From Mycoavidus sp. HKI (GTDB lineage: Bacteria; Pseudomonadota; Gammaproteobacteria; Burkholderiales; Burkholderiaceae): a DNA stretch of 64,000 bases. The stretch covers positions 1,751,501-1,815,500 of the forward strand of contig NZ_CP076444.2 of assembly GCF_020023735.2 (NCBI RefSeq), in the 5' to 3' direction. Positions 25,233-47,898 of this stretch are shown here, one piece after another (the stretch's first letter is position 1; every line of letters begins with the position of its first letter). A model generated the notes under the pieces. That model did no database searches. It saw only the letters and a program-made list of their open reading frames with translations, and was not told the origin of the DNA. The position numbers and the translations under genes were made by a program.

Positions 25233-25595
25233 TCAATCCGCTACAGCTAATGCCATCATAGGCGACTCCTCTCCCAATGGAGAAGTCCAATCTTCATATA
25301 CTTTGCGAGCGCTTATCTCGTTGATCACACCACACCTGCCCTTTTTATATTTCAATACAAGCATATGTAGATGAGTGACCCCATCATCATATGCGGTTTT
25401 TTTCATATGATTGATGACATCATCGGCGTAACCAAAAATATTCTTGAATCTGTCGACAAAATCAGAATAAAGAATCGGCTGTAGATCCAGCACGATATCC
25501 ACTCCAAGCCCCGGCAGATACTTTTCTAACCTGAATTCGGGATAAGGAAATGCAGAGGTAAGGGAAGAAATTTTTCTAGAAAATGAAGCGGGCAC
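25233..25595 (-). pseudogene. C-terminal fragment of the IS-split methyltransferase
   Basis: The 120-codon open frame is a chimera. Its first 23-24 codons (25595-25529) are the left end of the IS982 element; the host part starts at about the lysine before YLPGLGVDIVLDLQ (25522 and below) and runs to the stop. Removing bases 25523-26547 (the element plus one 6-bp duplication) joins this part in frame to the fragment at 26548-27250, giving the phrase KLYEIIEKYLPGLG. The fragment is thus the last 96 residues of a 330-residue methyltransferase. A GTG start inside the IS could still express it, but without the SAM-binding part. Confidence 0.85.
25523..25528. repeat. IS982 target-site duplication, left copy
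   Basis: TTTCTA directly precedes the first base of the left inverted repeat and is repeated after the right end at 26548-26553. It is a 6-bp duplication, within the size range known for the IS982 family. Confidence 0.8.
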
Positions 25596-26547
25596 TGAGT
25601 ATTTCGAAGAGAATATAAGTTTTGCGAACAGAAACCTCTAAGAAAAAACGGAGCGCCCGTGGATAATCTTACAGAACTTTATTGCTTGATGGATGATTTT
25701 TGCAAAGAATTTGAGCCGGAGCTCAACAAAAAGTTGTTATCTAGCGGAAAACGCAAACGCTTGCGTGCTACAAGCCTATCTTTAGCAGAACTGATGACGC
25801 TAGTCGTGCTTTTTCATCAAATTCGCTATCGGCAATTCAAGTCATTCTACAGCAATCATGTTTGCCAGCATCTGCGTGAAGCCTTTCCGAATCTGCCTTC
25901 GTATAATCGCTGTATTGAACTGCTACCACGCTGTAACCTTGCTTTGGCCGCTCTGTTTGAAACCCTCAAAGGGCAATGTTCAGGGATTTCTATTGCAGAC
26001 TCTACGCCTATTGCAGTGTGCGACAATCTGCGTATTAGTCGCCACCGTGTATTTGACGGCATGGCAGCGCGTGGTAAGAGTTCCACAGGATGGTTCTTTG
26101 GCTTCAAGCTGCATGCAATCATTAATCACCAGGGTGAACTGCTGAGTATTCGACTCACGCCGGGTAATGTCGATGATCGTAAGCCTTTGCCTGAACTAGC
26201 GCACTCACTGTTCGGCACACTTTATGCGGATAAAGGATATCTTTCAAAAAAACTCTCGCAGACCTTAAAAGAACTCGGCATTGATCTGATTACCAAGGTT
26301 CGACGCAATATGAAGCGCGTTACCTTGTCTGCTTTCGATCAAGCTTTATTGTGCCGCCGTTCAATTATCGAAACCGTCTTTGATGAACTGAAAAATCTTT
26401 GCCAGATTGAGCATACTCGACATCGCTCTCCTATTAATTTTGCCGTCAACTTACTCAGCGGCATCATCGCTTACTGCCTTATGCCAAATAAGCCTAAACT
26501 CCCTTTGGGACCTTGCCAGAATGCGTTGGCTTAACCCGAATTGAGGT
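25529..26547 (+). mobile_element. IS982-family insertion sequence, complete
   Basis: A 1019-bp element with imperfect terminal inverted repeats. The left end reads ACCTGAATTCGGGATAAG, and the right end, read on the minus strand, ACCTCAATTCGGGTTAAG (16 of 18 identical, with weaker pairing beyond). It is flanked by a perfect 6-bp direct repeat, TTTCTA. It holds one intact transposase gene. The insertion splits a methyltransferase gene of the NRPS cluster; the clean duplication and open transposase suggest a fairly recent event. Confidence 0.88.
25659..26534 (+). CDS. IS982-family transposase
   Basis: DDE transposase of 291 residues. The three acidic residues are visible in IADSTPI, LYADKGYLS and SIIETVFDELK. 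Family signatures are also present: GKSSTGWFFGFKLHAIINH, LTPGNVDDRKPL, KVRRNMKRV and HTRHRSPINF. The GTG start at 25659 has GGAG a few bases upstream. The stop codon lies within the right terminal repeat. The frame is complete, so the element may still be active. Confidence 0.93.
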   Translation: MDNLTELYCLMDDFCKEFEPELNKKLLSSGKRKRLRATSLSLAELMTLVVLFHQIRYRQFKSFYSNHVCQHLREAFPNLPSYNRCIELLPRCNLALAALFETLKGQCSGISIADSTPIAVCDNLRISRHRVFDGMAARGKSSTGWFFGFKLHAIINHQGELLSIRLTPGNVDDRKPLPELAHSLFGTLYADKGYLSKKLSQTLKELGIDLITKVRRNMKRVTLSAFDQALLCRRSIIETVFDELKNLCQIEHTRHRSPINFAVNLLSGIIAYCLMPNKPKLPLGPCQNALA

Positions 26548-27250
26548 TTTCTATGATCTCATATAGTTTGAACGGTTTCGTTGCATTTCCAGGCGCCATG
26601 GTCACCATCTGAAGTACCCCATCATCAACCAAATGTCGATCAACATTGGCTAAGATTTTATCTACAAAATCTAAGCCATAAATACCTGCTGCTGAGTTGA
26701 TATAGTAATTAACGTCCGGAGGAGTAGGTTCAAATGGTGGATTAGAGCAGATAAATTCAAATTTTTTGTTAGCAACAGACCGAAAAATATCGAAAGGATC
26801 GCCATCAATCATCAAGAAATCTTTATCGATATTATTGATCATAGCGTTGTATCCAGCAAATAGCTTCGCCCGCGGATTGATGTCGAGGCCGATGCAAGAT
26901 GCCGCTCCATTCAGCAAACAAAAAATACTGAGTGCACCTGACCCAAGTCCTATATCCAACACATTGGCATTTGCTAGATCCTCTTTGGACGTGTAGTCCA
27001 TAAAAAACAATTGCTCTGGTTGTATCGGGAGGACTTGGTCATCGTGAAGATAATCAAAAGAATCGGTGACTATCCTCATGGAGCATGACGATAGAGGATT
27101 TCTGTTCTCATCAGCCCAGCGATTAAAAGCATTCTGTAATTGCCCTTGCTTGGTGACAAGCAAGGAATTTTCCACCTCATGGGAGTCATGCATCTGATCG
27201 TTCTTTTTAGTGATGGAGAAAAGAACTTTTTTCTGATTTGTATTGCTCAT
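26531..27250 (-). pseudogene. N-terminal fragment of a class I SAM methyltransferase, split by IS982
   Basis: The frame codes for 239 residues, of which the last five (NLNSG) come from the IS end. It contains the SAM-binding motif VLDIGLGSGALSIF (near residue 95), GLDINPRAK and the catalytic-type motif NPPFEP. NPPF/Y is typical of enzymes methylating planar nitrogen (amide or base). The start ATG at 27250 has AAAGGAG upstream. With the 25233-25522 part it would form a 330-residue enzyme. It lies 54 bp after the carbamoyltransferase gene on the same strand, so it was most likely a tailoring gene of the NRPS cluster. The remaining fragment keeps the catalytic motifs but lacks its C-terminal third, so activity is doubtful. 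Confidence 0.85.
26548..26553. repeat. IS982 target-site duplication, right copy
   Basis: TTTCTA, identical to 25523-25528, immediately beyond the right inverted repeat of the element. Confidence 0.8.
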
Positions 27251-27304
27251 GCAACCTACTCCTTTTACTTAATCTGTCATTAGTCTCTATAGACGAAGGC
27301 TTTT

Positions 27305-28996
27305 TTATCTGGTGACAAACCTATCACCGATAAATAAAGCATCAATTGCTGTGCCCTGAAATGTTTTTATGGCATCAGATGGGGTGCAAACAATCGGCTC
27401 GCTGTCGTTGAATGAGGTATTCAGCACGAGCGGCACTCCCGTTTTATCAAAAAAATGCGAGATCAATGCATGGAACTCCGGATTGCTCTCTTTGCGCACC
27501 ATTTGAACCCGGGCTGAATCATCTTTGTGTAATATCGCGGGGATCATTTTTCGACGATCCTGTTTCGCTGGACAGGTGAAAAGCATATATTGGTGGCTCA
27601 AAGAGTCTTGTCCCAACTCAAACCAGTCAGCTGCCTCTTCGGCCAACACGCTCGGCGCAAAAGGACGAAATTCCTCGCGGTGTTTAACCTTCACATTCAG
27701 CACTTCGCGGATTAACGGATTGCGCGGATCCGCTAGCAATGAGCGATTGCCAAGCGCACGTGGACCGAACTCCATCCGACCTTGGAACCAGGCAACAATC
27801 TTGCCATCGGCGATCATATGCGCTACGTCGTGTGCGGGATTGTTGGACTGCTTTGCCTGCAAACCAGCCTCCTGAAAGGCCTGCACAATATCGACATCTG
27901 AGAATTTCGGGCCAAGATAGGGATTACTATCCACATGCAATGAGCGTATATCGGAGTGAGAATAATAATGGTGAAGTGCCGCTCCAACCGCCGTCCCAGA
28001 ATCATGCGGAGCAGTAGGGATATAGATATTTGAGAATATCCCGCTGTCTTTAAGCACCGAATTGCTCACGCAGTTCAGTGCTACGCCCCCTGCATAACAT
28101 AGATTATCTGCCCCTGACAGCGCGCGAAGCTCGCGAGCCAGGCCGAGTATTGCTTGATCGGTCGCCTCTTGCAGCGCGGCAGCAAGATGGTAATGACGGT
28201 CCGTAATCGGCTCATGATCCGAACGAGCTACGCCGAATAATTTCTCGAGTTGACCGAAATCTGGCAGACGAAAACATGCAATCGCCGGATCAACCTGATA
28301 TCGACCTTCGTTCAGATGCAAAAGCTTTTGGAAGTCTTCTCTAAAGACAGCCGGATCCCCATAAGCTGCCAAGCCCATGACTTTGCACGCATCATATTCT
28401 GAAAACCCTAAATATTTACTGAGCTTCTCCCACAAAAATCCGAGTGAATGCGGGTAATAGATTTGATCTAGGGTTGCGATGTGCGTCCCTTTCCCATGCG
28501 CAAACAATGTACATCCGGCTTCGCCAATGCCGTCAACAACTAGGATTGCGGCCTGCTCAAAGCCAGATGGGTAAAAACTGGAAGCTGCATGGGCGATGTG
28601 ATGAGGCACAAATGAAAATTGATCACCAAAGTGTCGACCCAAGAATTGATCTATTGCTTTAGGGATTTGGCGAAGTTCGGAGAGAAATATTTTTTCACCC
28701 TCAGCACTTCCCCAATCACCTGGCTGGCTTAATGAATCGAGCTCAAATTCTTGCTGCCTCATGGAGGGATCAAATGAATACGCAACCCCATCTAAATCAG
28801 CGGCCGTCAAGCCTGCATGAGCAAGACAAAAACGAATACTGTTTTCAGGTAGTTCAGTTGGGCTAGTGACGCTTGCCTCTTTAGCATGTTTTTTTCGTGT
28901 GAATCTCTCTTCTTCTACAGCCGCTATGATTTTGCCATCTATGACAAGTGATGCGGATGACTCGTGATAGGCAGAATTAATTCCTAGAATACGCAT
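27305..28996 (-). CDS. Carbamoyltransferase of the NodU/CmcH/TobZ family
   Basis: Enzyme of 563 residues that in this family uses carbamoyl phosphate and ATP, through a carbamoyl-adenylate, to carbamoylate a hydroxyl (or amino) group of a natural product. The N-terminal Kae1-like domain opens RILGINSAYHESSASLVIDG and holds the metal-binding His pair in HHIAHAASSFYPSG. The C-terminal YrdC-like domain contains GRMEFGPRALGNRSLLADPR. Both domains are full length. GGAGGAG lies just upstream of the ATG. It follows the NRPS gene by 141 bp on the same strand, which makes the peptide, for instance a threonine side chain, its likely substrate. That link is an inference from context. Confidence 0.92.
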   Translation of the reverse strand: MRILGINSAYHESSASLVIDGKIIAAVEEERFTRKKHAKEASVTSPTELPENSIRFCLAHAGLTAADLDGVAYSFDPSMRQQEFELDSLSQPGDWGSAEGEKIFLSELRQIPKAIDQFLGRHFGDQFSFVPHHIAHAASSFYPSGFEQAAILVVDGIGEAGCTLFAHGKGTHIATLDQIYYPHSLGFLWEKLSKYLGFSEYDACKVMGLAAYGDPAVFREDFQKLLHLNEGRYQVDPAIACFRLPDFGQLEKLFGVARSDHEPITDRHYHLAAALQEATDQAILGLARELRALSGADNLCYAGGVALNCVSNSVLKDSGIFSNIYIPTAPHDSGTAVGAALHHYYSHSDIRSLHVDSNPYLGPKFSDVDIVQAFQEAGLQAKQSNNPAHDVAHMIADGKIVAWFQGRMEFGPRALGNRSLLADPRNPLIREVLNVKVKHREEFRPFAPSVLAEEAADWFELGQDSLSHQYMLFTCPAKQDRRKMIPAILHKDDSARVQMVRKESNPEFHALISHFFDKTGVPLVLNTSFNDSEPIVCTPSDAIKTFQGTAIDALFIGDRFVTR

Positions 28997-29137: not shown

Positions 29138-32100
29138 TTAAGTTAAAAACTCCTCCTCGTTTTGGGGAGGCTGACGCCTCATTAACTCATTTAGCTTCTG
29201 TGCCAGAATACGACCCATTTCAATCATTGGCGCCGGCTGATCCATGTCATCGTGTGTACAGTGGATATCATAAGCTTCAATATCCCCAAGAACATAAGGC
29301 TTCCATAAATCAGGTGAGGGGAGCGGGATAGATTCATCCTCTTCTATTGTTGCCCTAAAGAAGAGCATGTCGCCGCAATAAATACGTGGGGAAAAACTCT
29401 TTAAAAGGTGTATATTATTTTTTAACGCATCTCGGGTTTTTTCCCATAAATATTCTCCCGCATCAGGCATATTTTCATCGCCATAGCGAGCAAGAAGCTT
29501 AATATAGAAAGCCTCTTGCATCGTTTCTAGTTCATCATCCTGCTGCGCAGAATCTGGGTAACTATCCAACAAAGCCAACAACGCTACTTTTTCACCTTGT
29601 TGCTCGAGTTGAGTGGCCATGGCGTGCACAACTTTGCCGCCAAAGGACCAGCCCAACAAATAGTAAGGTCCATTAGGCTGAATACGGCGGATTTGCCGGA
29701 TATAGTCTGATGCCATGGCATCGATGGTTTCCGCAAGCGGCGGCACGCCATTAAGCCCACGGGCTTGCAGACCGTAGACCGGTTGGTCTGCGTCAAACTG
29801 GCTAACCAGGCCCATATAATGCCAACTCAAGCCATTAACGGCGTGCACGCAAAAAAGAGGCGGCTGGGTGCCTGTGGGTTTGATCGGAAGCAAGACATCA
29901 AATGAATCGTCTTGGGTACCATCTCGCTTAAGAAGGCGTTGTGCTAAACCTGCAATAGTAGGCACATCAAACAGCATGCGGATGGTGATCTCGATACCCA
30001 ATGTGGAACGAATACGACTGATCAAGCGCACAGCGAGCAGCGAATGGCCACCGAGCGCGAAGAAGCTGTCGTGACGGCTGATTTGCTCGATATTGAGCAA
30101 CTCGGCCCAGATGTCCGCGAGAGTAGTCTCGACCTTGCCTTGCGGGGCCTCATACGCCTGGCGGGCAAAGGCTTCACCATCCGGCGCGGGCAGCGCCCGG
30201 CGATCGAGTTTGCCATTAGGTGTCAGGGGCAGTGCATCCAAGCGCACGAAGGCGGCTGGCATCATATACTCAGGTAACCGGGTCGTGAGGTACGAACGTA
30301 GCGTGCTGGCGAGCTGTTCGTCAGGTTCCGCCACAACATAGGCAATGAGCCGCTTGTCGCTACCCTCGCCCAGCGCGAGCAGAGCAGCTGCGCGCACCTG
30401 CGGATGCTCAACGAGGCGTGCCTCGATCTCACCCGGCTCAATCCGAAAGCCACGGATCTTGACCTGATCGTCATTGCGGCCAAGGTATTCGAGAACGCCA
30501 TTAGACAAGTAGCGAGCCAAGTCGCCTGTCTTGTACATGCGCGCCTCTTCATTCTTGCTAAACGGATCGCGAAGGAAGCGCTCTGCGGTCAATTCAGGAC
30601 GATTCAGATAACCACGCGCGACACCAGCGCCACCAATGTACAGTTCACCTATCGCGCCCAGCGGCACGGGCTGGCCATAAGCATCCAGTAAATAAACCTT
30701 AAGATCCGGAATCCGCACCCCAATCAGGCTACCGGTTTGATGACTATCCTGTGGTTGCAACGGTCGATAGGTGACATGCACAGTGGTTTCCGTAATGCCA
30801 TACATGTTCACCAATTGGGGAGAGTGTTCAGAGCGGGTGGCGTACCACGTCTGCAAGATGGTAGGCTCAAGCGCCTCGCCGCCGAAGATGACATAACGTA
30901 AACTGTCCTGTAATTCACTTTGCGCTTGGCTGACGATGAATGTCTTAAAAGCACTGGGCGTCTGATTCAATACAGTGATCCCTTGTTCGCACACCAAGCG
31001 GTAAAATTCCTGCGGCGAGCGGGCAATATGATGTGGTACGAGCACGAGCTTGCCGCCATAGCGTAAGGCTCCCCATAGCTCCCAAACAGAGAAATCGAAG
31101 GCGAACGAGTGAAATAGGCACCAGGTATCATGCGAGTTAAAGTGATACCAAGATTCTGTGGCGTCAAATAGTCGAACAATCTGAGCGTGTTCGACCATCA
31201 CTCCCTTGGGCATGCCGGTGGAGCCGGAAGTGTAGATCACATAGGCAAGGTGATGAGAGGTCAGCTCAGGGACCTGCGGATTGGTAATAGGCAATTCCGG
31301 CAGTCTATTCGGATCAAGCACGGTCAACGAGGCAAGCGCCGTCTTGCCCAGTGCAGTGCGTCCAGCCACATCAGCGATCAGGATCGACGGCGTCGCATCG
31401 GCGAGGATGTGCGTAAGACGCTCGCTCGAATACGCTGGATCGAGTGGCACATAGGCGCCACCTGCTTTCAAGATCGCCAGTACCCCCGCCACTATCGCCG
31501 GTGAGCGCTCGACACAGATCGCCACACGCGTATCAGGTTGAACGCCCAACTCAATCAGCTGATGCGCAAGGCAGTTGGCGCGCGCATTCAATTCAGCATA
31601 GCTTAATACTTGATCCTCATACACTAATGCGGTGGCTTCTGGGGTGCGTTCGACTTGCTCTTCAAACAATTGGTGAATGCATGGGTATTCTGGAGAAGAT
31701 ACTGCTGTCGTGTTACAGCTCTGAAGCAAATGCTCGCGCTCCTCAATTGGCAATACCTCCAGTCGCCAAACCGGCATATCAGGTTCGTGCTCCAGCGCTT
31801 CAGCTAGGCTTTGCAGCGTTTGCTGCATATAGCCACACACCCGGGCCGAGTCGAGTGGCTGCACGACCTGGGCGGTCAGTCCGAGCGCTGTTCCAAAATC
31901 CTCTACAGACAACATGAACGGGTAGTTAGTACGTTCCTGTGCACCGAGGAATTCAATACCAGTCGCAATCGTGCTCTCGTTCGACGACATCGCATTATGC
32001 CGATAATTCAGGAGCGCGCTAAACAACGGCGTGCCAGCCGGCACGCTACTGCAGCGTTGCGCTAACGCGAGCGACGCGTGTTCATGCTCAAGCAACGCAG

Positions 32101-33100
32101 CCAGGTGCGCATGGACCTGGCGCACGCTGTCTTGAACACTGCGATTGTCCAAGTCAATACGCAGCGGCAATGTATTGATGAATAGACCCATGGCACGGTC
32201 AGCTCCCTCGCCGGCTTGCATGCGCCCGAATAACACGGTACCAAACACCACTCGCTGTTGGCCGCTGGCGCGGGCAATCACCTGAGCCCAGGCTAGATGG
32301 CATAAACTGGCCAAACTCACGCCCAACCGTTTGGCCTGAGCACGTAGGCGATTATTTAAATCCTGCGGTAGCATCCGGTGCGATTCTGTGACTTGAGATC
32401 CATCGCGATAGATTTCGGCCAGTCCAAAGGGCAGCGTGGACTCATCCACGTCGGCTAACATGTCTGTGAAGAAGCGCTCGTGCGCTTGCTGGCTCAACCC
32501 TAAACGCGCCCGCGCTACCAGGTTGCGAAAGGGTTGAGGAGACTGCAGGGCATCGCCCCGACCGTCAAGGAACGCCTGAATCTCAACACACATCTCTTCA
32601 GCCGTCGAGTGATCACCGATCAGATGATGCAGCAACTGGAACAATAACCAGCGACCATCACTATCTTGCGCAACTACGAAGCGCAGCAACGGGGCTTGAG
32701 TCAAATCAATGCGATGGTAACGGGGATCGAAACGCTGGGCTAATTGTTCAGTGATCAGTCCATTGACTAGATCCAAGGAGAGTTCTGTGATCGACAGCGG
32801 CGCGTGACGCCAGACCACCTGGGCGGGCGTAGATAAACCCTCCCAAACAAAGGCAGTGCGCAGGATGTCGTGGCGCTTGACTACCTGCCGGACAGCGTCC
32901 AGGTAGCAATCGAGCCGCTCTCGGTCGGCAAAAGCCATCTGAGAGGTCAGCAAATACGGATCACCTTTAGTCGCCAGCAGGTGGTGGAACAAAATGCCAT
33001 CCTGCAGTGGAGACAATGCATAGATATCCTGGATATTGGCCACCCCATCTGGGGTTTGTTCTACGATACAGTCGATCTCAGCTTGAGCGAAGTCGATCAA
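29138..33100 (-). other. NRPS module 5 (dual E/C5-A5-T5) threonine, plus thioesterase
   Basis: A5 has the same threonine code as A3, D-F-W-N-I-G-M-V-H-K. T5 differs from the other carriers after its serine (GGHSLLAVRLISRIR), as is usual before a TE. The thioesterase (about 29900-29138) has the nucleophile in GWSFGG and a plausible catalytic His in the CTHDDMDQPAP segment near the end. It releases the pentapeptidyl chain by hydrolysis or cyclisation; a threonine hydroxyl could serve as the internal nucleophile. Confidence 0.8.
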
Positions 33101-42100: not shown

Positions 42101-45100
42101 TCCGTCGCGATGGATCTCAGCCAGTCCAAACGGCAGCGTGGGCTCTTCAATATCGGCCAGCATCTCCGTAAAGAAGTGCTCGTGCATTTCCTCGCCTAGT
42201 CCTAAGCGCACCTGAGCTATCAGGTTGCGGAACGGCTGTGGAGCTGGCAGCGCATCGCCCCGGTTTTCCAAGAAAGCTTGCACTTCGGCATTCATCAATT
42301 CCAGCGTCGAGTGATCGCCAATCAGATGGTGCAGCAGTTGGACCAGCAGCCAGCGGCCATCGCTGTCCTGTGCGATTATGAATCGCAGTAGTGGAGCCTG
42401 AGTCAAGTCGATACGATATTGGCGGGGGTCAAAGCGCTGAACCAATTGCTCGATGACCGGTCCATCGGACGGATCCAGGGTGAGCGTCGTGATCGACAGA
42501 GGCGCCTGACGCCAGACCACCTGGACTGGTGTGGATAAATTTTTCCATACAAAGGCGGTACGCAGGATATCGTGGCGCTTAACCACTTGATGGACCGCGT
42601 TTAGGTAACGATCGAGCAACGTCCGGTTGTCAAAAGCCATCTGGGCAACCAATAGATATGGATCGCCCTCGGTCGCCAGCAGGTGATGGAACAGAATACC
42701 GTCTTGCAGCGGTGACAAGGCGTAGACGTCCTGGATATTGCCCACCCCGCCTGGGGTGTGTGCAACAATCCAGTCGATTTCAGTTTGCGTGAGGTCGATG
42801 AGCGGCAGCAGGTCTGGCGTTAGCGTGCTAGTGTCAGGGGTAATAAGATTGGGGGGGGCAGCCACTTCGCAATGTTGACCTAGAGATTGAGCCAGCACGC
42901 TAAGCGTAGGCGTGTCGAACAGGGCGCGCACAGAGACCGTTAGGCCGAGGTGACGCAAACGTTCGATCATCTGCACAGCGATCAGCGAGTGGCCGCCGAG
43001 CGCAAAGAAACTGTCATGCCGACTGATGCGCTCCAGACCGAGCAGCTCAGCCCAGATTAAGGCCAGCGCGGTCTCGATTTCGCCTTGCGGTGCCTCATAC
43101 ACCTGACGGGCGAAAGCTTCATCGTCTGGCGCCGGTAGCGCATGGCGGTCGAGTTTACCGTTGGGCGTTAGCGGGAAGGAATCCAAGCGCACGAAGGCAG
43201 CCGGCACCATGTATTCGGGTAGCTTAGCCGCGAGGTGCACGCGCAGGGTATAGGCGAGCTGCTCGTCGAATTCGGCCACGACATAGGCAACCAGCCGTTT
43301 GTCACTGTTCTTGCCTAACGCAAGTACAATAGCATCATGCACCTGTGGCAATTCAACCATGCGCGCCTCGATCTCGCCGGGCTCGATCCGAAAACCGCGG
43401 ATTTTGATCTGGTGGTCGTTACGGCCAAGGAAAACCAGATTGCCGTCAGGCAAGTAGCGGGCCAGGTCCCCTGTCTTGTACAAGCGGGCATCTTCAAGAT
43501 CGCTGAACGGATCAGGAAGGAAGCATTCAACTGTCAATTCAGGTCGGTTCAGATAGCCGCGCGTGACACCAGCACCGCCAATATACAATTCTCCCACCGC
43601 GCCTGACGGTACCGGCTGGCGATTGGCATCTAACAGGTAGAGCCGGGTGTTAGCAATCGGCCGGCCAATCGGAACCACTTCACTGCTGAAATCGCGCGAG
43701 CAACGCCATACTGTTGTGCCAGCAGTCGTTTCAGTTGGGCCGTAGGCATTGAAGACGGCGCATTGATGGATCAAGTTTCGGAGTAATGTCGTACTAGGCG
43801 CCTCAGCTGCCAGAATCAACGTCAGAGGAGTGTCCAGACGGGGCAAATCCTCACCATTCTGCAGCAGCGCGGGGGGTAAGGTAGCGTGGGTGATTGTATG
43901 TTTCGCCAAATAATCCCATAGTTTATTCCGATCAAGACGGACCGTATCAGGAGGCAGATATAAGCCTGCGCCACAGCCCAAGGCCATGACGATTTCCCAA
44001 ACGCTTACATCGAAACTGAAAGAGGCAAACTGCAAGACCCGGCTTGATGAACAAACCCCAAAACAAGCAATCTCCGCCTGGGTGAGATTCACAACGTTTC
44101 GATGCTCCACCATCACACCCTTGGGCATGCCAGTAGAACCGGAAGTGTAGATTACATAGGCGAGATGATGGGGAGTAAGCTCAGGGATCTGTGGATTAGT
44201 GACGGCCAACTCTGTTAGCGCATGTGGATTGAGTATGGTCAGTGACGCGAGGGCCGCTTCATCTAACGCGGCCCGGCCAGCTGTATCAGCTATCAGGATT
44301 GTCGGTGCCGCGTCAGCAAGCATGTGCGCGAGTCGCTCGGGTGGATATGCTGGATCAAGCGGTACATAAGCGCCTCCTGCTTTTAGGATCGCCAGCAGCC
44401 CGACCACCATTGCTGGTGAGCGTTCCACACAGATCGCCACGAGCATATCCGGCTTGACGCCCAATTCGATTAATTGGTAAGCAAGGCAGTTAGCCCGCGC
44501 ATTCAGTTCCGCATAAGTCAGTACCTGATTCTCGTACACGAGCGCAACGGCTTCTGGCGTGCGCTCGACCTGCTCCTCGAACACCTGATGAATGCACTGG
44601 TGTTTCGGATACGGCGCTGCCGTTGCATTCCAATCGACTAGCAATTGTCGCCGCTCTGCGGCATCGAGCAGGTCGATGTCACCAATTAGTTGCGTGGGCT
44701 CAGTGGCAAAGGCGTTTAGGAATTTTAAAAAACGCCGTTGGTGTGCACTCAGTTCATCTGCTGTATAAAGCGCGGGGTTCGCTTCGAAGTCGATCCGTAA
44801 CGAACTGTCCTCGGGTAGTACATAGACCGAGATCATCAGATCTTCGACTGGCCCATTGACAAGATTATGATTGGTCGACGAATGCTCGCCAAAAGATAGG
44901 CCGCAATCAAATAACATGAGATTGATCATAGGACCAAACAATAGTTGGCTTGACGCTAGCCCAAGCCCTCGCCTTAAGTCTTCACTGCGATAGCGTTGGT
45001 GCTGAAGTCCACCTTGAATCTCTTGCGCCGCCTGTTCAAGCAATGAGGATAGGCTCATATCCGACCGCACGGTGAATCGCAGAGGCACAATATTAGACAC

Positions 45101-45958
45101 CATGCCGGGAATGCACCGATTTTCACCAAAACGGGCCGTCACCGGAAGGCCCAACACCACGTCCTGAACGCCTATCCAACGATGAAGATACGCCGCCATG
45201 GCAGCCGTCATCAGCTGCGCCAAAAAACGCTTTGCACCAGCAGCGTGAGTGCGCATCGCTTGAGAGGAAAGATAAGTTGTCTGACGAAGATGATAATACA
45301 AAGCGGGGGCTTGCCGATTTGCAAGCGTCACCGGTTCGGGCCAGTCCACGCAGTGCTTAAGCCAATAGGTATGATCTTTCGTAAACTGTGCAGAAGCGCG
45401 GTAATGAATATCACTTTTCAGCAGTACCGATACCGGTCCGAAGGGGCACTTGTTCGCCACCAAACCGTTGGCCAGCGCGCTATACACCTGCGCCATGCGT
45501 TGCACAATGAGGGCACGTCCGGTTCCATCGATCACAATATGGTGATAGCGCTGATACCAAAAAAAACGCTGCGGTGCGATTTGTAACAATGCATAGCCAA
45601 ACAGCGGGCCATGCAGAAGGTCAATTGGCTGATTGTAGTCGGCTCTCATCCAAGCTTCAGCGGCCGCCTGAGGATCAGCGTCTGCACTGACATCAATCAA
45701 AGGTAACGACCAATCCGGTGAACCGACAAATTGTTGAAAGCCATCACCACTTTCAATGAACTGAAGGCGTAAACTTTCTGCTTCTTCGACCACCTGCCGC
45801 AAAGCTGCCTCAAACAAAACCGGGTCAACAGCACCCTGGATTTCCGTAAACTGACCAATATTGTAAGCCGGGCTATCGAGATTGAGTTGCTGCGCGAGCC
45901 ATATCTCCGTTTGCGCAGCAGATAAAGGATAGACTACCGGATTGGAGCAAGCAGGCAT
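29138..45958 (-). CDS. Five-module nonribosomal peptide synthetase with C-terminal thioesterase
   Basis: A single 5606-residue protein with domain order C1-A1-T1, C2-A2-T2, C3-A3-T3, C4-A4-T4, C5-A5-T5-TE. All five carrier domains keep GGHSL with the phosphopantetheine Ser (near residues 990, 2071, 3152, 4225 and 5307). All A domains keep YTSGSTG, YKTGDL and the NGKLDR lysine. C1 has a canonical HHIVIDG and resembles starter/EntF-like condensation domains. C2-C5 carry HHLLATxGD near their N-termini, the dual epimerisation/condensation signature, and HHLIxDH/N in place of HHxxxDG. The TE has GWSFGG near residue 5436. No MbtH-like protein, transporter or Sfp-type transferase is encoded nearby. 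The 184-bp gap to the upstream lyase gene and common strand suggest one unit. The start has AGGTGA eight bases upstream. Confidence 0.97.
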   Translation of the reverse strand: MPACSNPVVYPLSAAQTEIWLAQQLNLDSPAYNIGQFTEIQGAVDPVLFEAALRQVVEEAESLRLQFIESGDGFQQFVGSPDWSLPLIDVSADADPQAAAEAWMRADYNQPIDLLHGPLFGYALLQIAPQRFFWYQRYHHIVIDGTGRALIVQRMAQVYSALANGLVANKCPFGPVSVLLKSDIHYRASAQFTKDHTYWLKHCVDWPEPVTLANRQAPALYYHLRQTTYLSSQAMRTHAAGAKRFLAQLMTAAMAAYLHRWIGVQDVVLGLPVTARFGENRCIPGMVSNIVPLRFTVRSDMSLSSLLEQAAQEIQGGLQHQRYRSEDLRRGLGLASSQLLFGPMINLMLFDCGLSFGEHSSTNHNLVNGPVEDLMISVYVLPEDSSLRIDFEANPALYTADELSAHQRRFLKFLNAFATEPTQLIGDIDLLDAAERRQLLVDWNATAAPYPKHQCIHQVFEEQVERTPEAVALVYENQVLTYAELNARANCLAYQLIELGVKPDMLVAICVERSPAMVVGLLAILKAGGAYVPLDPAYPPERLAHMLADAAPTILIADTAGRAALDEAALASLTILNPHALTELAVTNPQIPELTPHHLAYVIYTSGSTGMPKGVMVEHRNVVNLTQAEIACFGVCSSSRVLQFASFSFDVSVWEIVMALGCGAGLYLPPDTVRLDRNKLWDYLAKHTITHATLPPALLQNGEDLPRLDTPLTLILAAEAPSTTLLRNLIHQCAVFNAYGPTETTAGTTVWRCSRDFSSEVVPIGRPIANTRLYLLDANRQPVPSGAVGELYIGGAGVTRGYLNRPELTVECFLPDPFSDLEDARLYKTGDLARYLPDGNLVFLGRNDHQIKIRGFRIEPGEIEARMVELPQVHDAIVLALGKNSDKRLVAYVVAEFDEQLAYTLRVHLAAKLPEYMVPAAFVRLDSFPLTPNGKLDRHALPAPDDEAFARQVYEAPQGEIETALALIWAELLGLERISRHDSFFALGGHSLIAVQMIERLRHLGLTVSVRALFDTPTLSVLAQSLGQHCEVAAPPNLITPDTSTLTPDLLPLIDLTQTEIDWIVAHTPGGVGNIQDVYALSPLQDGILFHHLLATEGDPYLLVAQMAFDNRTLLDRYLNAVHQVVKRHDILRTAFVWKNLSTPVQVVWRQAPLSITTLTLDPSDGPVIEQLVQRFDPRQYRIDLTQAPLLRFIIAQDSDGRWLLVQLLHHLIGDHSTLELMNAEVQAFLENRGDALPAPQPFRNLIAQVRLGLGEEMHEHFFTEMLADIEEPTLPFGLAEIHRDGSQVTETRQVLPQDLNDRLRAQAKRLGVSLASLCHLAWAQVLARASGQQRVVFGTVLFGRMQAGEGADCVMGLFINTLPLRVDLDDTGVEDSVRDTHARLAALLEHEHASLALAQRCSSVPAGAPLFSALLNYRHNAMLSGESRTMPGIELLHIEERDNYPLGLSIDDSGQALKLTVQIVQPFHPDRVCGYMQQALESLAQALEHTPQIPARQLEVLPVTERELLLQMGSEMATPYPAHQCLHQLFEAQVKRTPDNTALVHEDQVISYTELNARANCLAHHLILLGVCPDSRVALYAQPSIEMVVGMLATLKAGGAYVPLDPNYPPERLVDMVTDSAPVVLLSIGPPHAAVVQCLGVDVPVLDLQADAGQWKRRSSRNPNPHKLALSAEHLAYVIYTSGSTGRPKGVMVQHRSVVNLVTAMAQRLELSSQDRVLQFSSLSFDASVGEVFVTLISGAALLLRTDAWLAGAQQFWSLCEANRISVMDLPTQFWTQLAQESVPIASSARVIMISGDALSASARAAWFAVAGHRPRLLNVYGPTETTISATVHEVTAGDCRWRTIGRPIANTRIYILDTSMQLTPVGVAGELYIGGAGVARGYLNRPELTAERFLPDLFSDCEDAWMYKTGDLVRYLPDGNLEFLGRNDHQVKIRGFRIEPGEIETHLVEHPQVREAIVLALGEHSNKRLVAYVVAEPDEQLANTLRAHLATGLPEYMVPAAFVQLDALPLTPNGKLDRRALPTPDDEAFARPTYETPQGEIETVLATIWAELLGVERVSRHDSFFALGGHSLLAVQMIERLRRLGLTVSVRALFDTSTLSMLAQSLGQHQKVVVPPNAITFNTLNLVPDLLPLIDLTQADIDCIVKQTPGGVANIQDIYALSPLQDGILFHHLLATKGDPYLLTSQMAFADRERLDCYLDAVQQVVKRHDILRTAFVWESLSMPAQVVWRRAPVSITELTLDPADGPVIEQLIQRFDPRHHRIDLTQAPLLHFIVAQDSDGRWLLIELMHHLIGDHSTAEEMRVEIQAFLDGRGDALPSPQPFRNLVAQARLGVSQQAHERFFTDMLADVEESTLPFGLAEIYRDGSQVTESHRMLPQDLNNRLRAQAKRLGVSLASLCHLAWAQVIARASGQQRVVFGTVLFGRMQAGEGADRAMGLFINTLPLRIDLDNRSVQDSVRQVHAHLAALLEHEHASLALAQRCSSVPAGTPLFSALLNYRHNAISSSASPALTGIEFLGAQERTNYPFMLSVEDFGTALGLTAQVVQPLDSARVCGYMQQTLQSLAEALEHEPDMPVWRLEVLPIEEREHLLQTCNTTAASFPEYPCIHQLFEEQVERTPEATALVYEDQVLSYAELNARANCLAHQLIELGVQPDTRVAICVERSPAIVVGVLAILKAGGAYVPLDPAYSSERLTHILTDATPSILIADVAGRTALGKTALASLTVLDPNRLPESPITNPQVPELTSHHLAYVIYTSGSTGTPKGVMVEHAQIVRLFDATESWYHFNSHDTWCLFHSFAFDFSVWELWGALRYGGKLVLVPHHIARSPQEFYRLVCEQGITVLNQTPSAFKTFIVSQAQSELQDGLRYVIFGGEALEPTILQAWYATRSEHSPQLVNMYGITETTVHVTYRPLQPQDSHQTGSLIGVRIPDLKVYLLDAYGQPVPLGAIGELYIGGAGVARGYLNRPELTAERFLRDPFSKNEEARMYKTGDLARYLSNGVLEYLGRNDDQVKIRGFRIEPGEIEARLVEHPQVRAAALLALGEGSDKRLIAYVVTEPDEQLASTLRSHLTTRLPEYMMPAAFVRLDALPLTPNGKLDRRALPAPDGEAFARQAYEAPQGKVETALADIWVELLNIEQISRHDSFFALGGHSLLAVQMIERLRRLGLTVSVRALFDTPTLSVLAQTLGQHREVAAPPNLITLDTATLTPNLLPLINLTQTEIDCIVEQTPGGVANIQDIYALSPLQDGMLFHHLLATEGDPYLQIAQMAFANRALLDRYLEAVQQVVNRHDILRTAFVWEHLSTPAQVVWRQASLSITELFLDPANGPITEQLAQRFNPRQYRIDLTQAPLLRFVIAQDNHGRWLLIQLLHHLIDDNSSLKRMNAEIQAFLEGHGGTLQAPQPFRNLVAQARLGLSQQAHERFFTDILADLEEPTLPFGLAEIHRDGSQVTDSHRMLSQDLNDRLRAQARRLGVSLASLCHLAWAQVLARTSGQQRVVFGTVLFGRMQAGEGADRAMGPFINTLPLRIDLDDRGVEDSVRDTHARVAALLEHEHASLALAQRCSSVPPGTPLFSALLNYRHNAMPSGESQMMPGIELLRAEERDNYPFGLSVEDFGEALGLTAQIVQPFDPDRVCSYMQQALESLVKALEHAPQTPARQLEVLPDTERELLLQTWNATAAPYPARLCLHQLFEVQVECMPDATALVYENQVLSYAELNTCANRLAHKLTELGVAPDVRVAICVERSPALVVGLLAILKAGGAYVPLDPAYPSERLTYILTDAAPAILLADAAGRASLGEVALASLTVLDPNRVPEAPITNPQIPDLTPHHLAYVIYTSGSTGMPKGVMVEHRGIVNLAQAQTVHFGILPSSRVLQFASLSFDISVGEIFMTLGCGAGLYLPPDSVRRDRNALWDYLARYTITHANLTPALLGNGENLPSLSISLTLILGGEAPTAPLLRNLSHQGVIFNAYGPTETTVSATIWRYSHDLNSKAVPIGRPIANTRIYLLDAYGQLVPLGAVGELYIGGVGVTRGYLNRPELTAERFRPDPFSDCEEARMYKTGDLARYLPDGNLEFLGRNDHQVKIRGFRIEPGEIEARLVEHPQVREATVLALGEHSDKRLVAYVVAEPDEQLASALRAYLATGLPEYMVPAAFVRLDMLPLTPSGKLDRRALPTPDNEAFARQAYEAPRGEIETALAAIWTELLGLEHVSRHDSFFELGGHSLLAVQMIERLRHLGLTVSVRTLFDTPTLSVLAQSLGQHHEVPTPPNLITPNTVKLTPDLLPLIDFAQAEIDCIVEQTPDGVANIQDIYALSPLQDGILFHHLLATKGDPYLLTSQMAFADRERLDCYLDAVRQVVKRHDILRTAFVWEGLSTPAQVVWRHAPLSITELSLDLVNGLITEQLAQRFDPRYHRIDLTQAPLLRFVVAQDSDGRWLLFQLLHHLIGDHSTAEEMCVEIQAFLDGRGDALQSPQPFRNLVARARLGLSQQAHERFFTDMLADVDESTLPFGLAEIYRDGSQVTESHRMLPQDLNNRLRAQAKRLGVSLASLCHLAWAQVIARASGQQRVVFGTVLFGRMQAGEGADRAMGLFINTLPLRIDLDNRSVQDSVRQVHAHLAALLEHEHASLALAQRCSSVPAGTPLFSALLNYRHNAMSSNESTIATGIEFLGAQERTNYPFMLSVEDFGTALGLTAQVVQPLDSARVCGYMQQTLQSLAEALEHEPDMPVWRLEVLPIEEREHLLQSCNTTAVSSPEYPCIHQLFEEQVERTPEATALVYEDQVLSYAELNARANCLAHQLIELGVQPDTRVAICVERSPAIVAGVLAILKAGGAYVPLDPAYSSERLTHILADATPSILIADVAGRTALGKTALASLTVLDPNRLPELPITNPQVPELTSHHLAYVIYTSGSTGMPKGVMVEHAQIVRLFDATESWYHFNSHDTWCLFHSFAFDFSVWELWGALRYGGKLVLVPHHIARSPQEFYRLVCEQGITVLNQTPSAFKTFIVSQAQSELQDSLRYVIFGGEALEPTILQTWYATRSEHSPQLVNMYGITETTVHVTYRPLQPQDSHQTGSLIGVRIPDLKVYLLDAYGQPVPLGAIGELYIGGAGVARGYLNRPELTAERFLRDPFSKNEEARMYKTGDLARYLSNGVLEYLGRNDDQVKIRGFRIEPGEIEARLVEHPQVRAAALLALGEGSDKRLIAYVVAEPDEQLASTLRSYLTTRLPEYMMPAAFVRLDALPLTPNGKLDRRALPAPDGEAFARQAYEAPQGKVETTLADIWAELLNIEQISRHDSFFALGGHSLLAVRLISRIRSTLGIEITIRMLFDVPTIAGLAQRLLKRDGTQDDSFDVLLPIKPTGTQPPLFCVHAVNGLSWHYMGLVSQFDADQPVYGLQARGLNGVPPLAETIDAMASDYIRQIRRIQPNGPYYLLGWSFGGKVVHAMATQLEQQGEKVALLALLDSYPDSAQQDDELETMQEAFYIKLLARYGDENMPDAGEYLWEKTRDALKNNIHLLKSFSPRIYCGDMLFFRATIEEDESIPLPSPDLWKPYVLGDIEAYDIHCTHDDMDQPAPMIEMGRILAQKLNELMRRQPPQNEEEFLT
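30020..33060 (-). repeat. Long intragenic repeat, copy in module 5
   Basis: About 3 kb that is nearly identical to 36476-39516 at a constant offset of 6456 bp, covering most of C5, A5 and the start of T5. Many stretches of over 100 bases match exactly by eye, for example 32890-33040 against 39346-39496. Confidence 0.85.
33170..36330 (-). other. NRPS module 4 (dual E/C4-A4-T4), substrate uncertain
   Basis: C4 has HHLLATEGD near 36205, and the second motif is HHLIDDNSS near 35830, the only condensation domain here with Asn after the Asp. A4 is related to A1 in its framework (both contain GCGAGLYLPPD) but its pocket reads D-I-G-N-I-G-A-V-S-K, so the specificity has diverged. I know no firm match for this code. 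Confidence 0.5.
36410..39580 (-). other. NRPS module 3 (dual E/C3-A3-T3), threonine
   Basis: A3 pocket residues read D-F-W-N-I-G-M-V-H-K, the classic threonine code, from FDFSVWELWG, LNQTPSAF, VIFGGEAL and NMYGITETTVH. C3 has HHLLATKGD near 39440 and HHLIGDHST near 39080. The module is a near copy of module 5 at a constant offset of 6456 bp. Confidence 0.85.
36476..39516 (-). repeat. Long intragenic repeat, copy in module 3
   Basis: Partner of 30020-33060; covers most of C3, A3 and the start of T3. The lack of drift suggests recent duplication or gene conversion. Confidence 0.85.
39650..42800 (-). other. NRPS module 2 (dual E/C2-A2-T2), substrate uncertain
   Basis: C2 has HHLLATEGD near 42690 (dual E/C motif) and HHLIGDHST near 42320. 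A2 differs from the other A domains in its central part. Manual pocket reading gives D-A-G-D-M-S-V-I-S-K. Gly at the third and an acidic residue at the fourth position recall codes for basic amino acids such as ornithine, but the match is weak. If C2 is a true dual domain it epimerises residue 1 before condensation. Confidence 0.5.
42890..45958 (-). other. NRPS module 1 (C1-A1-T1): starter C domain, phenylalanine-like A domain
   Basis: C1 covers about residues 1-440 with HHIVIDG near 45530. It sits at the very N-terminus, so it must accept an acyl or aryl donor from outside, or be idle. A1 (about 44610-43110) gives, by manual alignment to GrsA, the pocket D-V-W-T-I-A-A-A-G-K. The first seven positions resemble the phenylalanine code (DAWTIAAICK), with smaller residues at the last two variable sites. 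Given the adjacent aminomutase gene, phenylalanine, beta-phenylalanine or a related aromatic unit is the best guess. The T1 serine is near 42990. Confidence 0.6.
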
Positions 45959-46009
45959 AAGTCACCTAGAGAAAAAGTTAGAGGTCGGCCACAGATTGGT
46001 GGACCGTAC
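45929..46009 (-). repeat. NRPS leader and first ten codons, duplicated upstream of the aminomutase gene
   Basis: Minus-strand sequence from GTACGG through CTCTAGGTGACTT to codon ten of the NRPS (MPACSNPVVY). It aligns with 47811-47890 at roughly 70 % identity by eye, including the ribosome-binding site and coding start. Confidence 0.6.
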
Positions 46010-46142
46010 TAAAAAAACTTAAACCACTACAGAATTAAACAGATGCCAGCACACCAACCGAAGAATCAGCGCGCTTGGTAAACAATACTATTTCAAACTC
46101 ACATATCAATCATTTCACTTTTATACGGTGGCTGAACTGAAA

Positions 46143-47780
46143 TTAATGGAATTCGGGAGTCAGCGTACACCCTACCTTATTAAAGCCCTGGGACACGTTC
46201 ACTCTCTCGGTCGGCACTGAAAGTTGAATCATCCCACCCCGGATAAAGCTGGCAATATTTTCCAGATATGGAGTGAGCGGCTTATCCTGATCAAAGAACG
46301 GTACAAAACGTCGCACAGCATTGTAGAGCGTAGTCGTGTGGGTCCCGAGTTTATCCGCACCACGAATGTCGGCGGCTTGACATCCGCACAGAAGTTCAAA
46401 GCTTATGACATAAACCGCATTGTCAAAGATTTCTCGGGCACGCCGAGCCGCTACAAGACCAAGCGAGACAATATCTTGAAAGTCAGCCGTGGAAGGTAGC
46501 GACTGAATGGAAAGTGGCACACACAGAGACCGATTTTCCGAGGTGAGGGATGCACTCATGAATTGACCTCCCATTAATCCCAAGCGAATTCCCTGCTCGC
46601 TAGCACAGAGAAAGGGCGGCAAACCATTACTATTATTGCTGTCCATGAATCGATCAATACGTCGGTCTGATAAATTACTCAATGTCGTTAAAGCAAGAGA
46701 CAAATGGTCCATCGCCATGGCGATGTATTGGCCATGGAAATGACCATTATGATAAGCATCACCATGTTTCGGGATAATCAGTGGATTATCGCTACTAGAA
46801 TTTAACTCATTTTCCACGACACGCTTAACATACTCGACGGAATCCCTGATTGGCCCAAGAATCTGTGGTGTGCAGCGCAAAGAATAGGCATCTTCAATTT
46901 GGTCCTCTGCACTATCGACCACATCATCAGAAAGCTTTGACCGAAGCTCTTTTGAAACACTATCTTCATCACTGAGCATGGTACTGTCTGCAAGTAGATT
47001 ATAGATATTCGTTGCGGATGCCATCTGGCCTGGATGTGGCTTTTCTGCGTGTACCAACGGTGAAAATGCTTTGCGTTTTCCTTTTAACGTCTCCAGCGTT
47101 AAGGCCGTAATCGATTCATACGATTCAATAATTTTTTCTGTATCGTTTATCGTCAGACAGGCGAGCCCAGTCATGGCTGAAGTACCATTGATCAATGCCA
47201 GACCTTCTTTATAACTAAGTTTTAGGGGTTCGATCCCTGCCGCTTTGAGTGCGTCTGACGCGGCCATGACTTCACCACGATACCGGACCTGCCATTTTCC
47301 AGTTAATGCCAATGCAATTGCGGCAAGCGGCCCCAAATCACCGCTTGTGCCGAGAGAACCCTTCTGCGGTATGCAAGGACATATGCCATGATTAAATATC
47401 GCGACAAATTTTTTCATATTATCCAGCGAGATCGCAGATACGCCACGGGCGAGCGAGTTGATGCGCGCCAACATCGCCGCGCGGACTATAGGATCGTCGA
47501 AATATGAGCCGACGTTTGTTGCAACTGCCGCGATGAGATTGTCTTGCATGTGTGCAGCATGCTTTTCTGGGATGAGATATTTGACGAAGCCTCCCATGCT
47601 TGTATTCACGCCATAAATTACTTTTCCTTGTGCCAGGAGATCGTCTAATAACTGACGTGACTTCACAATGGCTTCACACGCACCTTCACTCAGCTTGATC
47701 TTAATATCAAAATCATAGGCTACTCTAGCAATGTCCGCAGCCTTCATCGATTCGCCGGAAATTTCAAAAATATTACTCAT
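46143..47780 (-). CDS. MIO-type aromatic amino acid aminomutase/ammonia-lyase (phenylalanine aminomutase-like)
   Basis: Enzyme of 545 residues of the histidine/phenylalanine ammonia-lyase superfamily, which uses an MIO prosthetic group formed from three consecutive residues. The catalytic Tyr56 lies in YGVNTSMGG. The MIO triad is Thr145-Ser146-Gly147 in GSLGTSGDLGPLAAIALALTG rather than the usual Ala-Ser-Gly. Thr-Ser-Gly together with GPLAAIA is, as I recall, the hallmark of the Pantoea AdmH phenylalanine aminomutase and close relatives such as EncP, so formation of beta-phenylalanine or cinnamate from L-phenylalanine is likely. Later motifs (SSSDNPLI, GQYIAMAMDHL, QDIVSLGL) are in place. It lies 184 bp upstream of the NRPS gene on the same strand and probably supplies its first building block. 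AAAGGAG precedes the ATG. Confidence 0.88.
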   Translation of the reverse strand: MSNIFEISGESMKAADIARVAYDFDIKIKLSEGACEAIVKSRQLLDDLLAQGKVIYGVNTSMGGFVKYLIPEKHAAHMQDNLIAAVATNVGSYFDDPIVRAAMLARINSLARGVSAISLDNMKKFVAIFNHGICPCIPQKGSLGTSGDLGPLAAIALALTGKWQVRYRGEVMAASDALKAAGIEPLKLSYKEGLALINGTSAMTGLACLTINDTEKIIESYESITALTLETLKGKRKAFSPLVHAEKPHPGQMASATNIYNLLADSTMLSDEDSVSKELRSKLSDDVVDSAEDQIEDAYSLRCTPQILGPIRDSVEYVKRVVENELNSSSDNPLIIPKHGDAYHNGHFHGQYIAMAMDHLSLALTTLSNLSDRRIDRFMDSNNSNGLPPFLCASEQGIRLGLMGGQFMSASLTSENRSLCVPLSIQSLPSTADFQDIVSLGLVAARRAREIFDNAVYVISFELLCGCQAADIRGADKLGTHTTTLYNAVRRFVPFFDQDKPLTPYLENIASFIRGGMIQLSVPTERVNVSQGFNKVGCTLTPEFH

Positions 47781-47792
47781 TTAATGTCTCCT

Positions 47793-47890: not shown

Positions 47891-47898
47891 AACAGACA

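Follow-up and report, generated by a model that had tools for sequence, protein, structure and literature searches.

What would a gene block of about 23 kb make that joins an aminomutase to an NRPS in Mycoavidus, apparently an endosymbiont of soil fungi, and does that NRPS use the amino acid from its neighbour? The block occupies positions 25144–48664 of the window (the whole stretch of DNA analysed, 64 kb) between rsmI and sppA, which are adjacent in two other Mycoavidus genomes with aligned ends 25 and 18 bp apart. Judged from its sequence, it is an orphan NRPS cluster of the endosymbiont, very probably Ca. M. necroximicus, and forms a single block between these genes. An earlier note on this DNA had described four gene loci on a single strand, and all four (aminomutase, NRPS, carbamoyltransferase and methyltransferase) are on the minus strand. 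The window gave no hits to Rfam families or tRNAs, and a promoter/terminator scan of 45900–48700 performed no better than on shuffled sequences. At the right end of the block, the sequence reads as a broken-off transposase start.

24427–25143, plus strand: rsmI, left neighbour of the block
25144–48664, no strand assigned: whole inserted block, with rsmI on one side and sppA on the other
25233–25527, minus strand: C-terminal part of the methyltransferase, 78% identical over residues 243–328 of an intact paralogue
25528–26548, plus strand: IS982-family element in the methyltransferase gene, with transposase at 25659–26534 (plus strand) and 27-nt terminal inverted repeats
26549–27250, minus strand: N-terminal part of the methyltransferase (234 residues, class I, NPPF motif), cut by the IS, with an open frame running to 26531
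27305–28996, minus strand: carbamoyltransferase of the NovN/TobZ/GdmN family, 563 aa, with Pfam domains Carbam_trans_N and Carbam_trans_C
29138–45958, minus strand: five-module NRPS (C-A-T x5-TE), 5606 aa, single open frame
46143–47780, minus strand: MIO-type phenylalanine 2,3-aminomutase of AdmH/PaPAM type, assigned by NCBIfam TIGR04475, identity to AdmH and the match to PDB 3unv
48665–49672, minus strand: sppA, right neighbour of the block

The 545-aa aminomutase matched Pfam Lyase_aromatic with 552.6 bits and carries the triad T145-S146-G147, in agreement with the MIO-type lyase/mutase with a TSG triad of the earlier note; AdmH's own triad, masked in PDB chain 3unv, is presumably also TSG. 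The AdmH-type identity proposed at the same time is supported by the family model, as the protein scored 850.9 bits with the TIGR04475 equivalog for AdmH-type phenylalanine aminomutases (cut-off 800) and stayed below the cut-offs of the tyrosine 2,3-aminomutase equivalog (450.2 against 501) and of the NCBIfam PAL and TAL models. Its best PDB match was AdmH (3unv, 626 bits; next match 321), and the columns invariant between both enzymes include Y56, V86, N198, Y299, R302 and N327, which we take to have catalytic roles. A role in histidine degradation, which had been raised as a competing explanation of the lyase, was rejected because the protein scored 499.9 bits with the HutH equivalog (cut-off 539.15) and no urocanase match was found in the genome (98.57% complete). 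One further MIO lyase is encoded in the genome, among genes read as an aryl-polyene cluster, and there are no others. Conversion of L-Phe to (S)-beta-Phe by the aminomutase would be the predicted step in which we have most confidence, and its gene is located directly upstream of the NRPS gene in the same orientation.

A motif scan of the NRPS found five adenylation motifs, five carrier motifs and one thioesterase motif (GWSFGG), and a Pfam run on the protein in two halves found Condensation, AMP-binding, PP-binding and Thioesterase domains; together with the intact 5606-aa frame this bears out the C-A-T x5-TE synthetase described earlier. The limits of its domains, given below, are approximate, and the residues given for the adenylation codes are predictions.

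44639–45934, minus strand: C1, acyl-starter-like condensation domain, the first of five, with canonical HHIVIDG
43079–44566, minus strand: A1, code DVWTIAAAGK, Phe-like, with unusual Ala at 302, A330 and G331 and a full-length loop
31754–42787, minus strand: C2–C5 (within 41459–42787, 38219–39541, 34964–36298 and 31754–33085), all four with HHLLATxGD, the motif of the dual E/C type
39908–41368, minus strand: A2, code DAGDMSVISK, Asp at 278, no substrate predicted, sharing 90% identity with A3 in the paralogous cluster that also has a carbamoyltransferase
36659–38131, minus strand: A3, code DFWNIGMVHK, Thr, 96.7% identical to A5
33449–34891, minus strand: A4, code DIGNIGAVSK, no substrate predicted from the code
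30209–31666, minus strand: A5, code DFWNIGMVHK, read as Thr
29141–29866, minus strand: thioesterase domain, GWSFGG, Pfam PF00975 with 99.3 bits

C1 shares 62.8% identity with its counterpart in the probable symbiosin synthetase and 69.5–76.7% with three other first C domains in the genome. Because it resembles an acyl-starter domain, a similarity not available to the earlier note, its sequence suggests that the window peptide is capped by a fatty acyl group. C2–C5 are 75.8–92.7% identical to each other and 24–25% to C1, and these four of the five C domains carry the extra N-terminal motif HH(I/L)xxxxGD, presumably the signature of dual epimerisation/condensation domains, which supports the predicted D-residues in the product. 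Identity of C2 to C3–C5 (76–81%) is close to that among most of C3–C5 (78–93%), and gives no hint of a beta-amino-acid donor at C2.

The threonine code in two of the five A domains likewise supports the threonine-rich product proposed earlier. The claimed aromatic start was not supported beyond a reading of the Phe-like code of A1. Beta-amino-acid A domains have a beta13-beta14 loop that is one residue shorter, according to PMC11253843, and such a loop was found in none of the five window A domains and in 6 of the 72 A domains compared. Four Phe-like short-loop A domains, with codes DVWIITAV- and DVWIVTAA-, are spread over four further NRPS genes in the genome. They combine a Phe-like V236 and W239 pocket with a bulky T301 and the loop shortened by one residue, features reported for beta-amino-acid A domains in PMC11253843. 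Short loops are also present in A domains with the non-aromatic codes DVYWTGGI- and DVYWMGG-, and the loop by itself is therefore no proof of beta-Phe. The short-loop Phe-pocket domains elsewhere in the genome suggest that several assembly lines could be supplied by a single aminomutase.

Both Carbam_trans domains of the carbamoyltransferase scored over the curated cut-offs, and solved members of the family match most of its length with 311–350 bits, in line with the CmcH/TobZ-type enzyme proposed earlier and placing it with the small-molecule NovN/TobZ/GdmN type; with the NodU NCBIfam equivalog it scored 185.7 (cut-off 1000). A paralogue at genome positions 614770–616461 is 78% identical, and a more distant carbamoyltransferase (452172–453824), with about 30% identity, lacks a neighbouring methyltransferase of this kind. 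Elsewhere in the genome, part of yet another carbamoyltransferase gene is present and is interrupted by stops. Among the plasmid collection and a sample of 60 relatives, the nearest protein outside two endofungal genera was from Streptomyces clavuligerus (57% identical), where the gene adjoins one for a GntD/VioC-type hydroxylase.

The class I methyltransferase of the earlier note stands as a gene locus but not as one intact gene, since it is split by the IS982-family element, and the start coordinate 25233 given there does lie in methyltransferase sequence but only in its C-terminal fragment. The transposase scored 273.4 with the IS982 equivalog (cut-off 130), the 27-nt terminal inverted repeats are 81% complementary, the insertion is flanked by a probable 7-bp target duplication (TTTTCTA), and the genome holds four further copies of the element, two full and two partial, all 100% identical to it. 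An intact 329-aa paralogue is 71% identical over its residues 11–249 and 78% over residues 243–328. Both methyltransferase copies of the genome contain SNPPFEP and all six Mycetohabitans copies contain NPPF, and we take NPP(F/Y) to be the motif of N5-glutamine/HemK-type methyltransferases. The top NCBIfam match was a generic putative-methyltransferase model; next came HemK2/MTQ2 and the N5-glutamine methyltransferases of PrmC and L3-specific PrmB type, with equivalog scores far below the cut-offs for the window piece (HemK2 56.5 against 87, PrmC 49.1 against 199.1) and also below them for the intact paralogue (50.8 and 42.2). A single-sequence fold of the piece had a mean pLDDT of 33.8. Because of the NPPF motif and the distant likeness to amide-N methyltransferases, we propose that carbamoylation would be followed by methylation of the carbamate nitrogen, a step that the split would abolish here unless the 71%-identical paralogue acts in trans.

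The reading that we consider probable is thus of an orphan cluster in which, with confidence falling at each step, the aminomutase would supply (S)-beta-Phe, the NRPS would assemble a fatty-acylated pentapeptide, acyl-aa1-aa2-Thr-aa4-Thr, with D inner residues and release by the thioesterase, the carbamoyltransferase would transfer a carbamoyl group to a hydroxyl, either in the peptide or in a free residue, A1 would load beta-Phe or Phe, and the methyltransferase would have N-methylated the carbamate before its loss. Its weak points are the five window A domains without a short loop and the lack of a beta-amino-acid donor signal at C2, as well as the low HemK2 and PrmC scores, the A2 type of code in Mycetohabitans NRPSs that have no pair nearby, and the distant carbamoyltransferase that lacks such a methyltransferase. 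The four Phe-like short-loop domains in other NRPS genes also favour a different arrangement, in which the aminomutase works in trans for other assembly lines, beta-Phe is loaded there and the window A1 takes L-Phe; we regard this as unlikely, since the aminomutase gene is co-oriented with and directly upstream of the window NRPS, its Mycetohabitans relatives also adjoin NRPS genes, and the short loop is shared with A domains of non-aromatic code.

MIO aminomutases can release cinnamate, and with C1 being of the acyl-starter type the enzyme could act mainly as an ammonia-lyase whose cinnamoyl product becomes the acyl cap. This is very improbable, as the protein passed the cut-off of the aminomutase equivalog and not those of the PAL and tyrosine-lyase models, and no CoA ligase gene was found among the ORFs of the block. 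Nor do we think it at all likely, although somewhat less far-fetched, that the block is a decaying relic whose loss was begun by IS982 and whose product has ceased to be made: the element that splits the methyltransferase is identical to its other copies, a carbamoyltransferase gene fragment with stops exists elsewhere and what reads as a transposase start is broken off at the right border, but the frames of the 16.8-kb NRPS, the aminomutase and the carbamoyltransferase are all intact. For the preferred reading of an orphan cluster making a carbamoylated lipopeptide, the split gene as possible decay, and the absence of an exporter gene among the ORFs of the block, count against it.

The methyltransferase adjoins the carbamoyltransferase at both loci of this genome and at all six loci in four Mycetohabitans genomes. 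Within the sets searched, this pair turned up, beside synthetases, at no loci other than these 6 of Mycetohabitans and the two of this genome, and at E ≤ 1e-15 the methyltransferase had no match in 393 of 398 Burkholderiaceae genomes and in 397 of the 398 genomes drawn from across the phylum. The A2-type code DAGDMSV(I/V)(S/T)K occurs in both pair clusters of the genome and in one of the five readable Mycetohabitans pair loci (the sixth ends at a contig end, and motif-based reading missed some A domains). It is also found in Mycetohabitans NRPSs with no pair nearby; in strain B8, 8.6 kb beside one such NRPS had no carbamoyltransferase or methyltransferase match. Strict coupling of this code to the pair is weakened by both observations. 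At least one Asp278 code is present in 7/7 pair-linked NRPSs with readable codes, versus 2/12 other A-bearing genes of the genome, and the pair could tentatively be a movable two-gene unit peculiar to endofungal Burkholderiaceae, which would install an N-methylcarbamate on, or before loading of, the residue chosen by an Asp278-type A domain to give N-methylcarbamoyl peptides, and which here would be joined with beta-Phe and, since the IS insertion, would yield a plain carbamate. The Asp278 codes in Mycetohabitans NRPSs without the pair argue against this, and we hold it to be doubtful.

An open-literature search, with the symbiosin paper and the Ca. M. necroximicus genome paper outside its scope, found no description of this gene set; the parts of the cluster are known ones, in a combination that we did not find described. 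The cluster is a concrete orphan with a predictable non-standard building block. Symbiosin is a lipopeptide (PMC12177691), and its scaffold in that paper implies a synthetase of six modules with beta-Ala in third place; we assign genome positions 1693571–1718014, with six A domains whose codes read Gln-Thr-bAla-x-Ser-Tyr, to the probable symbiosin synthetase. The first C domain of the window NRPS is 63% identical to that of this synthetase, but the window NRPS has five modules versus six and no beta-Ala code, and its cluster was rejected as the symbiosin cluster. The O-carbamoyltransferases NovN (9s2t), TobZ and GdmN share both Pfam domains with the window enzyme (311–350 bits). AdmH of andrimid (PDB 3unv) is 56% identical to the window aminomutase; to our knowledge, andrimid involves no five-module NRPS with a carbamoyltransferase.

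Closer aminomutases, 80–81% identical and encoded directly beside an NRPS, are found in Mycetohabitans (M. rhizoxinica HKI 454 pBRH01 640104–671899, strain B8 and M. endofungorum), at loci that we presume to be those of the habitasporins, depsipeptides with beta-Phe and pipecolate. The first C domains of these NRPSs are 52–54% identical to the window C1 (three cases), whereas their lengths and codes differ, with six modules in B8 and eight in a genome of M. endofungorum, and some modules are spaced in a way that suggests inserted domains. Two of these stretches had no carbamoyltransferase or methyltransferase match, and none is annotated in the HKI 454 stretch. Conversely, the Mycetohabitans pair loci and the paralogous cluster (595646–616461) share the gene order of the window pair, with 74–78% identity for the carbamoyltransferase and 60–71% for the N-terminal part of the methyltransferase, but unlike the window cluster had no aminomutase match in the stretches examined; four of the six Mycetohabitans loci and the paralogous cluster further carry a gene for an ABC exporter, and their NRPS is a different one. 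The methyltransferase is intact in all of these and broken in the window, and its split offers a natural comparison, within one genome, of a carbamate cluster with an N-methylcarbamate cluster. In two endofungal genera, both the aminomutase and the pair are found again next to different NRPS genes.

The four gene loci of the cluster share the minus strand within a block (25144-48664) lying between rsmI (24427-25143, plus strand) and sppA (48665-49672, minus strand), and are listed here in order of transcription, followed by the insertion sequence that splits the last of them.

46143-47780, minus strand, aminomutase (first)
29138-45958, minus strand, five-module NRPS in one frame, 5606 aa (second)
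27305-28996, minus strand, carbamoyltransferase (third)
26549-27250 and 25233-25527, minus strand, methyltransferase in two pieces, split by IS982 (fourth)
25528-26548, IS982 insertion sequence, between the methyltransferase pieces

The host genome is a single contig of 2,254,889 bases, and the known members of Mycoavidus inhabit Mortierellaceae fungi, according to an extract of PMC12306442. The cluster is real and not an artefact; it is an orphan NRPS cluster with parts of known kinds, and our searches of the open literature found no description of this combination of parts. The element most deserving of testing is the unit formed by the carbamoyltransferase and the methyltransferase.

The gap between rsmI and sppA measures 23.5 kb in the window, while the aligned ends of these genes lie 25 and 18 bp apart in two other Mycoavidus genomes (the congeners), neither of which has a match to the carbamoyltransferase or, at E ≤ 1e-50, an adenylation domain like A2, the second of the window NRPS. 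The block was either gained in the host lineage or lost from both congeners, and gain is favored by the neighborhood in Mycetohabitans, another endofungal genus of the Burkholderiaceae, as rsmI and sppA adjoin at about 140-150 bp in both of its genomes examined.

Two full and two partial copies found elsewhere in the genome match the IS982 element exactly, so it appears to have been inserted recently. When aligned to the intact paralogue, both methyltransferase pieces cover the same 7 bp (genome 614011-614017), which is consistent with a 7-bp target duplication, TTTTCTA. The cluster has lost a methylation step of its own, and the paralogous methyltransferase might act in trans. Near the right end of the block, positions 48523-48612 hold a broken-off start (MNATTYGLDIAKR), which we read as resembling an IS110-type transposase.

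Among eight matched NCBIfam models, the aminomutase passed only that for AdmH-type phenylalanine aminomutase (850.9 versus a cut-off of 800); it stayed below the cut-offs of the histidine (499.9 versus 539.15) and tyrosine mutase (450.2 versus 501) models, as it did for PAL and the remaining matched models. It is 56% identical to AdmH, whose structure was matched at 626 bits, with the next solved structure at 321, and no urocanase match was found in the host genome. At genome 1483662-1489198 the host has a second MIO enzyme, amid genes that look to us like an aryl-polyene cluster. An even draw of 399 Burkholderiales genomes gave a match to the aminomutase at E ≤ 1e-100 in the host and in no other. 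Among named genomes, 69 loci matched the aminomutase, the best being those of M. endofungorum HKI456 and Mycetohabitans sp. B8 (81%), followed by matches of 59% and lower. The gene is present in 4/8 genomes of the genus of B8, the four without it being genomes of 1.1-1.2 Mb. In the plasmid collection 21 records matched at E ≤ 1e-100, nine of them from Mycetohabitans and all nine annotated as phenylalanine aminomutase. Wherever the flank was long enough (three cases), the Mycetohabitans gene comes directly after an NRPS gene, as it also does at the contig end of HKI456. The habitasporins of Mycetohabitans reportedly include beta-Phe and pipecolate among their constituents.

The window NRPS contains five adenylation (A1-A5), five carrier and five condensation (C1-C5) domains and a thioesterase, and its modules share sequence repeats (A3 and A5 96.7% identical, C3 and C5 92.7%) because they have a common origin. 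The adenylation codes are as follows.

A1, DVWTIAAAGK
A2, DAGDMSVISK
A3 and A5, DFWNIGMVHK
A4, DIGNIGAVSK

Compared with the known Phe code, A1 keeps W239, T278, I299, A301 and A322 and differs at 236, 330 and 331. Position 302 is Ala in A1 and Gly in 68 of 72 A domains compared, a set that is incomplete since the domains were located by one motif. In adenylation domains for beta-amino acids, the beta13-beta14 loop, which holds 330-331, is shorter by one residue, and bulkier residues occupy 236 and 301 (extract of PMC11253843). The short loop was found in six of the 72 domains, five from parts of the host genome beyond the window and the sixth from B8, and in four further domains, outside the 72, from two additional Mycetohabitans NRPSs linked to an aminomutase. 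Four of the five host domains combine it with a Phe pocket having W239 and T301 (NRPS genes at 595646, A2; 1661727, A5; 2044855, A9; and 1139209, A1), features of beta-amino-acid domains. The short loop is absent from A1, so the known signature gives no support for beta-Phe there.

Among solved structures, NovN, TobZ and GdmN score 311-350 bits against the carbamoyltransferase. A paralogue, 78% identical, lies in a cluster at genome 595646-616461 beside an intact 329-aa methyltransferase, an ABC-type exporter and an NRPS with five A domains; the tailoring and exporter genes of this cluster are related to a cluster of four Mycetohabitans genomes. No such methyltransferase adjoins a third, distant host carbamoyltransferase (452172-453824). 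A short relic of a carbamoyltransferase gene with two in-frame stops was seen at genome 869976-870107. The methyltransferase was found in 5/398 Burkholderiaceae genomes (E ≤ 1e-15), namely that of the host plus four Mycetohabitans genomes, in the host alone among 398 genomes of a phylum-wide draw, and in four plasmid records, all from Mycetohabitans. It directly follows the carbamoyltransferase at all six loci in the four Mycetohabitans genomes, M. rhizoxinica HKI 454 included, with one of the six carbamoyltransferases truncated. After these pairs comes an NRPS, at some loci preceded by an ABC gene; at one locus the contig breaks off within the start of the NRPS, and one NRPS is fragmented. 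In HKI 454 the annotated order at 146021-162492 is carbamoyltransferase, methyltransferase, NRPS.

Every methyltransferase copy has the motif SNPPFEP. The closest NCBIfam models, all below cut-off, are a generic putative methyltransferase, HemK2/MTQ2, PrmC and L3 glutamine methyltransferase, and the closest solved structures, all weak (33 bits or less), are MJ0882, METTL5, 7rc2-7rc6 (an asparagine side-chain N-methyltransferase) and gentamicin methyltransferases. The matches to HemK2/PrmC-type models and 7rc2-7rc6 suggest to us that the enzyme may N-methylate the carbamoyl NH2.

At least one A domain with Asp278 is present in all seven pair-linked NRPSs with codes read (two of the host, five of Mycetohabitans), and in 2/12 other A-bearing genes of the host genome. 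Because Mycetohabitans NRPSs that do not lie near the pair can have such A domains too, this link is a lead and not a test. The code DAGDMSV(I/V)TK occurs in seven A domains of several Mycetohabitans NRPSs (G428:C20 and C22, G432:C1, G434:C1; L136-L142), and its substrate could be read if the product of one such NRPS were known. The closest carbamoyltransferase found outside endofungal bacteria (57% identical) is on a Streptomyces clavuligerus plasmid, where its neighbor passes the model for the enduracididine hydroxylase GntD (414.3 versus 345), which at most hints at hydroxylated amino acids as possible carbamoyl acceptors.

Four other first C domains of the host genome share 63-77% identity with C1, and one of them belongs to the probable symbiosin (lipopeptide) NRPS, a likeness that suggests an acyl cap; C2-C5 have the dual-type motif. 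The probable symbiosin NRPS (genome 1693571-1718014, about 33 kb before the window) has six adenylation codes, which we read as Gln-Thr-betaAla-x-Ser-Tyr. Pleosporacin has the sequence Gln-Ser-betaAla-Trp-Ser-Tyr and a macrocyclic scaffold in common with symbiosin (extract of PMC12177691), the producer of the latter being Ca. M. necroximicus (extract of PMC12306442), so the host, with its probable symbiosin NRPS, very probably belongs to this species. As read, the codes of the 1693571-1718014 NRPS fit this symbiosin scaffold.
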